From NCBI GenBank assembly GCA_003164595.1, contig PLTT01000002.1, forward strand, positions 1 to 64,000: 64,000 bases of DNA, read 5' to 3'. This document shows positions 12,315 through 15,772 of the stretch, piece by piece; the stretch's first letter is position 1; every line of letters starts with the position of its first letter. This DNA is from Candidatus Saccharimonadota bacterium. GTDB taxonomy: Bacteria; Patescibacteriota; Saccharimonadia; Saccharimonadales; UBA4665. Under the pieces are notes generated by a model, which saw only the letters and a list, made by a program, of their open reading frames with translations, was not told the origin of the DNA and made no database searches. The position numbers and the translations under genes were made by a program.

Positions 12315-12956
12315 ATGGCACTCTTTCAACGACGACCGCAAACTAGCGACGTATCATCTCTCTACACTGTTGGACTGAATAATACTATTGCAGTAATTGG
12401 TCTTGGAAATATCGGCGCAGAGTATGAACAAACCCGCCATAATATTGGGTTTAATTGTGTTGATCATTTCGCCAAGGAGAGTGAATTCCCGGGCTGGATT
12501 TTAAAGAAAGATCTTAAGGCAGAGGTTTCAATTAAAACTCTTGGTGATAGCCGAGTTATATTAGTAAAGCCAACCACCCTCATGAATCGCAGCGGTGACG
12601 CAGTCAGCGAAGTTGTCCAATTCTACAAGATCCCAGCAAGCAATATATTAATAATTCATGATGAACTTGATATCTCATTTGGCAAGATCCGCTCCAGGCA
12701 GGGAGGTTCATCAGCCGGCCACAATGGCCTTAAATCAATCATAAACGTCATAGGCCCAGATTTCAGTAGGTTAAGGATTGGTGTTGGGCCAAAAACTCCT
12801 GAGCAGATAGATAGCGCAGATTTCGTCCTGCAAAAATTTAATCCGACTGAATCAAAGCACATGGATGCTCTTTACCTAGAAGTGTCTTCAATGATAAATG
12901 AGTATGTTTTTGGCGATCATAGTCTCTTAGGCGAGACCAGAAACTTTATAATCTAA
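12315..12956 (+). CDS. pth: Peptidyl-tRNA hydrolase
   Basis: It releases peptides from prematurely dissociated peptidyl-tRNA. Catalytic His42 in TRHNIGFN, Asp116 in HDELD and the GHNGLKS motif (about 135) are all present. The catalytic domain is of normal length, but about 23 residues precede the usual first strand (IAVIGLGN), so a start further in is possible. No better ATG or GTG lies at the expected place, and the five-base spacing to der favours the ATG given. Likely co-transcribed with der. Confidence 0.95.
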   Translation: MALFQRRPQTSDVSSLYTVGLNNTIAVIGLGNIGAEYEQTRHNIGFNCVDHFAKESEFPGWILKKDLKAEVSIKTLGDSRVILVKPTTLMNRSGDAVSEVVQFYKIPASNILIIHDELDISFGKIRSRQGGSSAGHNGLKSIINVIGPDFSRLRIGVGPKTPEQIDSADFVLQKFNPTESKHMDALYLEVSSMINEYVFGDHSLLGETRNFII

Positions 12957-12965
12957 TAGTGTTAA

Positions 12966-13006
12966 TAAAAAGAGCCTCCGGAGGGGGTGGGCACCGCCGG
13001 AGGCTC
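12966..13006 (-). terminator. Rho-independent terminator of the minus-strand RNA
   Basis: A 10-base perfect stem (12972-12981 with 12997-13006, GAGCCTCCGG) encloses a 15-base loop. On the minus strand it is followed by CTTTTTATT (12971-12963). On the plus strand no U-tract follows, so it serves the minus-strand transcript mainly and could at most pause pth transcription. Confidence 0.85.
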
Positions 13007-13322
13007 ATTATACCCTTCAACCCACCCCAGCGAAACATCGACGTCCAAAACTTAGTAATGACTCGTGTCGGTTATAAATAACCACCGTTTAGGCTCACTT
13101 GAAAAGGGGACTAACTACACATCATAAGAAGCATGTTAGAACTAGTTAAAGGGATTAGTTTGTCTTAGAGCGCTGCTAGACAAGCTAGCAGCCATCAATA
13201 GTGGAGGGTAACAACTTTGATTAGCACGCTCTAAAACAATCTAACAAATTGATTCCATCATAATGATGAAATTGTTAGAATGGGGGTATAAGGTACGTAA
13301 ACGTTAGTATTAACGCTTACAA
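12966..13322 (-). ncRNA. Candidate structured noncoding RNA of unknown class (~360 nt)
   Basis: A minus-strand promoter (13356-13329) and a strong terminator (13006-12966) bracket a stretch with no open frame and dense pairing. P1, TTATACCC (13291-13284) with GGGTATAA (13015-13008), closes the whole molecule. A long hairpin has arms 13272-13279 and 13240-13247. A second has arms of 13 bases (13227-13239 with 13160-13172, one G-U pair) and contains an inner 7-base hairpin (13173-13191). About 145 bases of linker precede the 3' P1 strand. The closing stem is reminiscent of tmRNA or RNase P RNA, but I see no CCA/T-loop and none of the RNase P universal blocks. 6S, SRP and CRISPR-associated RNAs do not fit either. 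Confidence 0.65.
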
Positions 13323-13328
13323 GTTGCT

Positions 13329-13356
13329 ATTTTAGCAAGAATATTATATTTGTCAA
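13329..13356 (-). promoter_or_regulatory. Promoter of the candidate ncRNA
   Basis: Minus-strand TTGACA (13356-13351), a 16-base spacer, TAAAAT (13334-13329). Expected transcription start is near 13322. Confidence 0.65.
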
Positions 13357-13452
13357 CACCTTTTTGTATTATACTCAAGTAGATTGTGTTAAATGCTTGT
13401 GTTTATTATTCAAAGGAATTGCATTTTAACTGGAGTAATGGTCATATCTGAC

Positions 13453-13482
13453 TTGCAATAGTAGCTATAACGCGCTTAAGAT
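13453..13482 (+). promoter_or_regulatory. Promoter of topA, leaderless
   Basis: TTGCAA at 13453-13458, an 18-base spacer, TAAGAT at 13477-13482, exactly seven bases before ATG 13490. Confidence 0.55.
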
Positions 13483-13489
13483 AAAAGAC

Positions 13490-15772
13490 ATGGCAAAAAA
13501 TTTAGTTATCGTTGAAAGCCCAGCCAAGGCCAAGACTATTGAGAAGTATCTCGGAAAAGACTATTCAGTAATGAGTAGCTTCGGGCATATTCGTGATCTA
13601 CCCAAAAAAGGCCTTAGTATAGATATTGACAATGATTTTGCGCCTCATTACGAGGTCAGTCCAGAAAAAAAGAAAGTTGTTGGCGACCTCAAAAAAGCTT
13701 CCAAGACAGCTACCGTATGGCTAGCGAGCGATGAGGACCGAGAAGGTGAGGCAATAGCCTGGCATCTTTGCATGGCGCTTGGCTTGAAACCTGAAAGCAC
13801 AAAACGCATCGTATTCCACGAGATTACCAAACCGGCCATAGAAAATGCCATTAAACACCCTAGATTTGTTGATATGAAAATGGTAGATGCCCAGCAAGCC
13901 CGCCGCATTCTGGATAGGCTTGTCGGCTATGAGCTATCCCCAGTCCTGTGGAAAAAAGTCAGGACCGGACTAAGCGCCGGAAGAGTTCAATCGGTTGCCG
14001 TAAGGCTTTGTGTTGAGCGCGAAAGAGAAATTCGGGCCTTCCAGCCGCAGTCGTCTTATAAGATAACTGCCATATTTGATGTCGAGGGAGCCGAGCTGCC
14101 AGCAGAACTGAACGCTAAGTTGAAAGATAAAGCGCTGGCCAAGGACTTTATTAATGACGCGAAAGATAGCGTCTTCACCATAAGCGATATTAGTAAGAAA
14201 CCTGCAACTAGAAGCCCAAGCGCACCTTTTACCACCAGCACGTTACAGCAGGAAGCCTCACGACGCCTTGGCTATAGCGTTAGACAGACTATGCAACTTG
14301 CACAAAGATTATATGAGCAGGGTCACATAACCTATATGCGTACTGACAGCACTATAATATCAACACAGGCAATCAAGGGCGCAGAGGATTATATTAAGAG
14401 TAAGTATGGTAATGAATATCATAAGATGCGCCAATTTCAAACGAAGAATCAGTCCGCCCAGGAAGCACATGAAGCAATTCGCCCAACAGATTTTAAACAT
14501 CTGAGCGCAGGTGAGGGTAGCCAGGAGAGCAAGATCTATCAGCTGATTTGGCAACGCGCCCTCGCTAGCCAGATGGCTGAAGCCAATATTGAACGAACTG
14601 AGGTTATTATCGCCCTAGATAAACGTCCAGAAACACTGGTAGCGAAAGGCGAAGTACTAAGGTTTGATGGTTATATGAAGGTTTATGGCGGTGCAAAAGA
14701 GAACGTCATACTCCCAGCCGTAGATAAAGGCGACAAGCTTAAGCTGCAGTCAATGGAAGCCAACGAAACATTTTCAAAACCACCAGCACGATATAATGAG
14801 GCAAGTTTAGTGCGTAAATTAGAAGAACTAGGGATAGGAAGACCAAGTACATACGCGCCTACTATTTCTGTTATACAGAACAGAGGATACATTGAAAAAA
14901 TCGATTTGGAGGGCGAAACCAGAACGCTTCAAGTCATTCGACTGCAGGATGGAAAAATTACAGAAGAAGATAAAAAGGATAATTACGGCGCCGACAGATC
15001 AAAACTAGTCCCAACGTCCATCGCCGAAGTAACCACAGATTTTCTCGTAAAGTATTTCCCGGATATAATTGATTATCACTTTACCGCAACTATAGAGAAT
15101 AGCTTCGACGAGATAGCTAGCGGGAACGAAGAGTGGACAAAGGTTATCAAAGATTTTTACGAATCATTTCATCCTCTCGTAGATAAGTCAGAATCTGTTA
15201 GTAGACAAGAAGTCAGTCAAATAAGAGAACTTGGCATAGACCCCAAAACCAAGAAGCTTGTTTTTGCCAGATTTGGCAAATATGGGCCAATGCTACAGCT
15301 TGGTGACAACGAGGATGAGGCGGAAAAACCACAATTCGCTCCTTTGCCGGCCGGATCTAGGCTAGAGACAATCGAACTATCTGAAGCACTCCCAATGTTT
15401 GAGCTACCAAGAAGCGTAGGGAAGACACCTGACGGACAAGAGATCATCACTAATATTGGTCGTTTCGGACCATATATTAAAGTAGGTGACAAGTTTGTTT
15501 CAATTAAGCCCCTAGACCCTCACACCATCACCCTAGAAGAAGCTCTTGAAGTATATGGTACTAAAGTGAAGGCAGACCTAGATAAATATATAACAACCTT
15601 TGAAAGTGGGATTAAAGTAGTTAAAGGTCAATACGGCCCATACATCACGGATGGCAAGAAGAACGCTAAAATCCCTAAAGACACAGACCCAACAACGCTC
15701 ACAGAAAAAGAGTGTAAAGAATTATTATCAAAAGCACCCGCTAGAAAAAAATTCCAACGTCGAAAAACATAA
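13490..15772 (+). CDS. topA: DNA topoisomerase I
   Basis: A type IA topoisomerase that relaxes negative supercoils. The TOPRIM domain carries SDEDREGE (about 79-86). GLSAGRVQSVAVRL (about 163-176) is the typical domain-I/III motif. The catalytic Tyr282 is in ITYMRTDS. Domain II/IV helices follow. The C-terminus has three short repeats (GKYGPML, GRFGPYI, GQYGPYI) and a basic tail, but no four-Cys zinc ribbons, so it is the zinc-less form. The 760-residue length fits. The start is set by a promoter seven bases upstream. Confidence 0.97.
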   Translation: MAKNLVIVESPAKAKTIEKYLGKDYSVMSSFGHIRDLPKKGLSIDIDNDFAPHYEVSPEKKKVVGDLKKASKTATVWLASDEDREGEAIAWHLCMALGLKPESTKRIVFHEITKPAIENAIKHPRFVDMKMVDAQQARRILDRLVGYELSPVLWKKVRTGLSAGRVQSVAVRLCVEREREIRAFQPQSSYKITAIFDVEGAELPAELNAKLKDKALAKDFINDAKDSVFTISDISKKPATRSPSAPFTTSTLQQEASRRLGYSVRQTMQLAQRLYEQGHITYMRTDSTIISTQAIKGAEDYIKSKYGNEYHKMRQFQTKNQSAQEAHEAIRPTDFKHLSAGEGSQESKIYQLIWQRALASQMAEANIERTEVIIALDKRPETLVAKGEVLRFDGYMKVYGGAKENVILPAVDKGDKLKLQSMEANETFSKPPARYNEASLVRKLEELGIGRPSTYAPTISVIQNRGYIEKIDLEGETRTLQVIRLQDGKITEEDKKDNYGADRSKLVPTSIAEVTTDFLVKYFPDIIDYHFTATIENSFDEIASGNEEWTKVIKDFYESFHPLVDKSESVSRQEVSQIRELGIDPKTKKLVFARFGKYGPMLQLGDNEDEAEKPQFAPLPAGSRLETIELSEALPMFELPRSVGKTPDGQEIITNIGRFGPYIKVGDKFVSIKPLDPHTITLEEALEVYGTKVKADLDKYITTFESGIKVVKGQYGPYITDGKKNAKIPKDTDPTTLTEKECKELLSKAPARKKFQRRKT

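Follow-up and report, generated by a model that had tools for sequence, protein, structure and literature searches.

A predicted structured non-coding RNA gene between pth and topA, conserved across an order of Saccharibacteria

Introduction

OLE, ROOL, GOLLD and raiA are large structured non-coding RNAs that are encoded by independent genes, have conserved long-range contacts, and were of unknown function when first described. Homo-oligomerization is reported for GOLLD, ROOL and OLE (PMC12286853). Among the housekeeping RNAs, 6S RNA (RF00013) is a stand-alone gene product with its own promoter, about 185 nt long and folded as one long bulged hairpin, and tmRNA (RF00023) and RNase P RNA (RF00010) are close in length to the RNA described below and, like it, near-universal in the order studied here. 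Finally, the C-rich-motif sRNAs of Firmicutes, such as RsaE and RoxS, are RNAs of about 100 nt with few helices, and their exposed C-rich loops could pair with Shine-Dalgarno (SD) sequences.

Here we characterize a locus on the minus strand of a 64,000-nucleotide stretch of DNA (hereafter the window), which shares an independent gene structure with the first of these systems and exposed C-rich loops with the last. The 16S gene of the window genome has four sites that match TM7-specific primers with 0 mismatches, which identifies the genome as one of Saccharibacteria.

Results

Gene boundaries and transcription signals

Positions 12966-13322 lack any ORF of at least 50 aa, and no likely gene overlaps them, in agreement with the gene-free region described in the earlier note. 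The region lies between pth and topA (Table 1). Both transcription signals that the note had named could be located, namely a TTGACA-16-TAAAAT promoter (13356-13329, minus strand; 11 of 12 consensus matches, with an extended -10 TG) and a strong terminator, in which a 10-bp GC-rich stem (13006-12997/12981-12972) is followed by UUUUU. Note that the terminator was missed by our scan because its loop is 15 nt long, and the limit of the scan was 8. In 95 extracted sequences, including that of the window, the TTGAC box was present in almost all and the terminator loop with GCCCACCC in every one, and the -10 region was kept as TGcTA..aT in the 91-sequence alignment. The longest ATG frames within the homologues ranged from 7 to 80 aa, and no ORF was conserved among them. 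These features support the prediction of a gene for a structured, non-coding RNA at 12966-13322 that is transcribed independently, its transcription being deduced from the conserved promoter and terminator.

Table 1. Positions of the RNA gene, its elements and its neighbours in the window
Feature	Position	Strand	Sequence	Basis or remark
RNA gene, predicted transcript of about 355 nt	12966-13322	-		fold, homology, covariation; ends predicted from promoter and terminator
-35 hexamer	13351-13356	-	TTGACA	promoter match; TTGAC box here in almost all extracted homologues
-10 hexamer with extended -10 TG	13329-13334	-	TAAAAT	promoter match
P1, 5' hairpin, variable sequence	13296-13322	-		z = -4.3; 150 double changes vs 84 in shuffles
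Conserved 5' segment	13282-13294	-	ACCUUAUACCCCC	alignment conservation
P3 (13274-13280/13240-13245)	13240-13280	-	UUCUAAC/GUUAGA	98% paired cells; changes chiefly one-sided
P4, 5' strand	13227-13239	-	UUGUUUUAGAGCG	pairs with 13160-13172; two-sided changes in 10 of 11 main-helix pairs
Loop A, near-invariant hairpin loop	13203-13213	-	UGUUACCCUCC	closed by covarying P5
P4, 3' strand	13160-13172	-	CGCUCUAAGACAA	covariation with 13227-13239
Long-range helix, 5' strand	13145-13153	-	CCCUUUAAC	pairs with 13013-13021
3' domain	13025-13109	-		covariation; length differs between genomes
P7	13095-13099/13029-13033; 13106-13109/13025-13028	-		29 double changes vs 13.5
P8 hairpin	13070-13083	-		144 double changes vs 46 in shuffles
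P9	13061-13068/13035-13044	-		156 double changes vs 48 in shuffles
Candidate pseudoknot strand	13022-13027	-	GGGUGG	complementary to terminator loop; overlaps P7
Long-range helix, 3' strand	13013-13021	-	GUUGAAGGG	covariation; also in MFE of isolated 3' domain
Terminator hairpin	12972-13006	-		stem with 312 double changes vs 87 in shuffles
Terminator loop, near-invariant	12985-12993	-	UGCCCACCC	in every extracted sequence
U-tract of terminator	12966-12971	-	UUUUU	sequence
pth, convergent neighbour	12315-12956	+		convergent in 53/53 relatives measured
topA, divergent neighbour	13490-15772	+		divergent in 45/45 relatives measured

Distribution among relatives

When 60 genomes of the order, whose genome sizes are 0.6-1.6 Mb, were searched at the DNA level, 58 gave matches, with E-values down to 2.5e-34 and an identity of about 70% along the entire length. 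Once the search had been extended with profiles, homologues of full length were confirmed in 57 of the 60 (the window genome, 54 others, G054 and G047), with one site per genome. The remaining three were represented by a short contig that ends near topA (G006), a genome of 88% completeness in which topA was not found (G032) and a genome in which topA is cut by a contig end (G059). Two apparent copies in G138 were rejected as one gene split across contig ends. The homologues are roughly 300-600 nt long. One of them (L105) has about 235 extra bases between the long-range helix strand GUUGAAGGG and the terminator hairpin.

With a core covariance model (R1), the RNA was detected in 61 of the 117 genomes sampled from the class. 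This model under-counts, since two genera that it missed, g64 and g70, carry the RNA in all 7 loci examined via the topA neighbourhood (E 2e-23 to 2e-9). The RNA in these loci (L212-L216, L218 and L219) is more diverged and inverted, so as to run in the same direction as topA. On the other side, no homologue was found near topA in G088 or in five outgroups of the same class, nor in the flanks of topA examined in named genomes. Among 380 genomes sampled from the phylum, matches occurred only within the order, with 8 candidates scored per genome, a depth at which distant forms could be missed.

Fold and conserved helices

The minus strand folds with -119.9 kcal/mol (z = -6.35), a value that none of 100 shuffles reached, and the plus strand folds less well (z = -5.0). 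A covariance check across relatives, as suggested in the earlier note, revealed strongly covarying stems in both the P4 core and the terminator (Table 1). Specifically, in an alignment of 63 core sequences that was fitted to the structure and is therefore biased towards it, and with which independent MAFFT alignments agree, 97.8% of the P4 core cells were paired, with 246 double changes compared with 52 in shuffles. The core covariation score in these sequences was 0.540 compared with 0.177 in shuffles, and sliding the partners by 1-3 columns destroyed the signal. P4 was kept with quite different bases even in outliers such as L126 and L124. The minus-strand structured RNA claimed in the earlier note is thus upheld by fold, homologues and covarying stems together, and the locus combines such stems, a promoter and terminator of its own and the lack of a conserved ORF, as is characteristic of structured non-coding RNAs.

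P3 encloses a variable and sometimes absent hairpin. Its GUUAG strand has a second possible partner in CUAA(C) (13154-13158), a pairing that RNAalifold preferred, and it is possible that the two pairings constitute a conformational switch. Both partners of GUUAG, UUCUAAC upstream and CUAA(C) downstream, are conserved.

The variable 3' domain is closed by a 9-bp long-range helix (CCCUUUAAC/GUUGAAGGG), for which 99.5% of the cells were paired and 9 double changes were counted, compared with 0.24 in shuffles (shuffle maximum 3). The earlier note had proposed a different closure, through an 8-base stem formed by 13284-13291 and 13008-13015. The complementarity of these segments is present in the window but is not conserved: in 91 sequences, 80% of the cells were paired, the same as in shuffled sequences, with 8 double changes compared with 11 in shuffles. 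The 8-bp stem also competes with the long-range helix for the same GGG. It was rejected for its lack of covariation and replaced by the long-range helix. The 13-bp stem described along with it is indeed present in the sequence.

C-rich loops

The core of loop A, TACCCTCC, was at least 97% conserved in 91 sequences, and the pairs of its P5 stem covary. As the C-rich loops UACCCUCC and UGCCCACCC stay almost unchanged on stems that covary, both loops probably serve as contact sites. Within the RNA, GGGUGG and the terminator loop (CCACCC) gave 92% paired cells, without covariation as the loop is invariant. Judging from this complementarity, a pseudoknot between the two that alternates with P7 as a switch is possible.

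The 16S tail of the window genome, read directly, is GGATTACCTCCTTT. Loop A (UUACC-C-UCC) resembles the 16S anti-SD tail AUUACCUCCUUU with one extra C, a resemblance that was noticed post hoc. SD motifs were mildly enriched before the starts of genes in the window. When the invariant segments were compared with 16S, partial 23S, RNase P RNA and tmRNA, their complementarity was within the range of shuffled controls, except for marginal values of the 5' segment. A role as an rRNA guide or in rRNA pairing was rejected, as the duplex energies were mostly like those of shuffled controls.

Relation to known RNA classes

At the gathering threshold, Rfam 15 detected only a tRNA in the window and only an unrelated tRNA across nine homologue loci. 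No bacterial housekeeping family appeared when the region was searched at E up to 10 and two divergent homologues at E up to 1. The Rfam search proposed in the earlier note therefore assigned the region to no family, and the note's reading that marks of tmRNA, RNase P, 6S and SRP RNA are lacking agrees with the absence of a model match in the region. The genome has tmRNA as a separate gene (G000:C15:5476-5873; none was found in the window by ARAGORN), as well as RNase P RNA (rnpB, G000:C16:20085-20448, 250 bits). A weak full-length 6S candidate was found at about G000:C16:18500-18642 (L249:1001-1143; 32.9 bits, E 0.0012, below the cut-off). This candidate adjoins a tRNA and lies near RNase P RNA, and similar weak matches occur near rnpB in relatives. 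We accordingly rejected the region as a divergent tmRNA, RNase P or 6S RNA, whose loci lie elsewhere in the genome (6S as a weak candidate only).

The SRP RNA models gave no match in the order (RF00169, Bacteria_small_SRP, 0 of 60 genomes; RF01854, Bacteria_large_SRP, 0 of 21), and both detected their targets in controls. The SRP core pattern GGAAGGNAGCAG was absent from the genome. The missing SRP RNA of the order may be very divergent, lost, or beyond the limit of the models. The RNA described here was rejected as SRP RNA, as no such model matched the region and the core pattern is absent.

Genomic neighbourhood

The neighbourhood common to relatives is der-pth/RNA/[dprA]-topA, and the divergent orientation to topA and the convergent orientation to pth given in the earlier note recur in all relatives measured (Table 1). 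The RNA is separated from topA by 91 to 2213 bp, and its distance to pth is 0 to 1932 bp. In 35 loci we found a protein family that was typed as dprA (Pfam DNA_processg_A); where loci were inspected, its place is between the RNA and topA. Positions 13356-13490 of the window lack the dprA that many relatives have at this place. Among the neighbours der, pth, dprA and topA, no protein gene was tied exclusively to the RNA.

A prophage at the gene

A 16-mer of loop A gave 25 matches in 2.9 million viral contigs, only one of which is a full homologue (L242). This IMG/VR contig of 38 kb ends in the homologue (E 1.5e-84). At its opposite end the contig repeats (94%) the initial 64 bp of the query, in which the promoter -35 region lies, and a tyrosine integrase gene adjoins this repeat copy. 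A prophage thus appears to have inserted at the RNA gene, either in its promoter or immediately upstream of it, making the RNA gene a phage integration site. Genes for tRNA and tmRNA likewise serve as phage integration sites. The prophage-like contig is IMGVR_UViG_3300049064_000004 (regions L242:7876-8398 and L246:1-1148). A phage origin of the RNA was rejected, as the sole full homologue on a viral contig lies beyond the prophage att site.

Discussion

We consider it likely that the locus encodes a structured non-coding RNA, about 355 nt long and acting in trans, which represents a new family across the Saccharibacteria order. Its occurrence in nearly all of these reduced genomes suggests a housekeeping role. 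Its strong promoter would drive constitutive transcription and yield a stable RNA that acts in trans, with the invariant C-rich loops UGUUACCCUCC and UGCCCACCC as putative contact sites. The UGCCCACCC loop would either dock on GGGUGG as a pseudoknot or bind a partner, and loop A might sequester either ribosome-binding sites rich in G or a factor recognizing the 16S tail. Given the resemblance of loop A to AUUACCUCCUUU, translation is our best single guess for the target of the RNA, albeit a weak one.

Two readings would make the RNA something already familiar, and we regard both as very improbable. The position between pth, dprA and topA, with a terminator hairpin 15 bp from the pth stop in the window, would suit a cis-element, that is, a leader, an attenuator or a bidirectional terminator for one of these genes. 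However, nearly all relatives have the RNA on the strand opposite to both genes (topA 45/45, pth 53/53), it is separated from them by up to 2 kb, and its conservation spans the whole RNA. The variable distances and the inversion relative to topA in two genera make it unlike a leader of either gene, and a cis-regulator of pth or topA was rejected on orientation, distance and inversion; we would give this reading the least credence of all. Taken together, orientation, variable gaps, inversion and the lack of a conserved ORF are most simply explained by an autonomous non-coding gene in a fixed neighbourhood. Scarcely more credible is that the RNA is a known housekeeping RNA, chiefly SRP RNA, so divergent in this order that the Rfam models do not detect it. 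The failure of the SRP models across the order while controls respond speaks in its favour, but none of the SRP, tmRNA, RNase P and 6S models appears in the cmscan of the region to E 10, no S-domain (tetraloop with AGCA) is visible in the RNA, length and architecture differ, and tmRNA, RNase P RNA and the weak 6S candidate are located elsewhere in the genome.

The other two readings concern how a new RNA would work. As a base-pairing regulator in the manner of the C-rich-motif sRNAs of Firmicutes, it would use two of its loops, loop A (ACCCUCC) and that of the terminator (GCCCACCC), to pair with G-rich SD regions of many mRNAs and would repress their translation. Two near-invariant C-rich loops on covarying stems, the likeness of loop A to the anti-SD tail and the enrichment of SD-like words before starts are consistent with such a regulator, yet typical C-rich sRNAs are much shorter and less structured than this RNA, conservation here extends beyond the loops to the core helices, and the candidate targets are putative, so we hold this reading to be doubtful. 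An RNA-only or RNP scaffold in the manner of OLE, ROOL and GOLLD, which would self-associate or hold a protein complex through a loop-GGGUGG contact within or between molecules, is in our view unlikely. The large ornate architecture, the long-range helix and the candidate GGGUGG/CCACCC pairing argue for it, as do the homo-oligomers reported for GOLLD, ROOL and OLE (PMC12286853); against it stand the lack of sequence or model similarity to OLE, ROOL and GOLLD and of an exclusively linked protein gene. As to the trans-acting housekeeping RNA that we prefer, it might tentatively be pictured as an essential, Saccharibacteria-specific RNA or RNP of an importance like that of 6S or SRP RNA, acting via its two invariant C-rich loops and perhaps replacing a function, such as one in translation or protein targeting, that has no recognizable standard RNA in the order.

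No RNA of this kind in Saccharibacteria was found in the open-access literature searched. As far as Rfam and this literature go, the RNA is a new family; what is new is the family, not a mechanism. An RNA that nearly all examined genomes of this order have kept, reduced as they are, is very likely important, even though it has no Rfam family, and it illustrates that order-wide RNAs can still be absent from RNA databases. The alignment, covariance model and helix map define a concrete, testable gene, which could serve as an annotation and phylogenetic marker and could explain part of the biology of the episymbiotic Saccharibacteria.

Compared with the systems outlined in the Introduction, the RNA of the window has no Rfam match to OLE, ROOL, GOLLD or raiA and no linked protein gene identified, and it is shorter (about 355 nt) than OLE, ROOL and GOLLD. 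It also matches neither the tmRNA nor the RNase P RNA model, both of these being separate genes in the genome, and it is unlike the single bulged hairpin of 6S RNA. Whereas RsaE and RoxS are small, the homologues of the window RNA are several hundred nt long and have a core of multiple conserved helices, and, in contrast to the large ornate RNAs, this RNA is near-universal in one episymbiont order and, among the genomes searched, particular to it.
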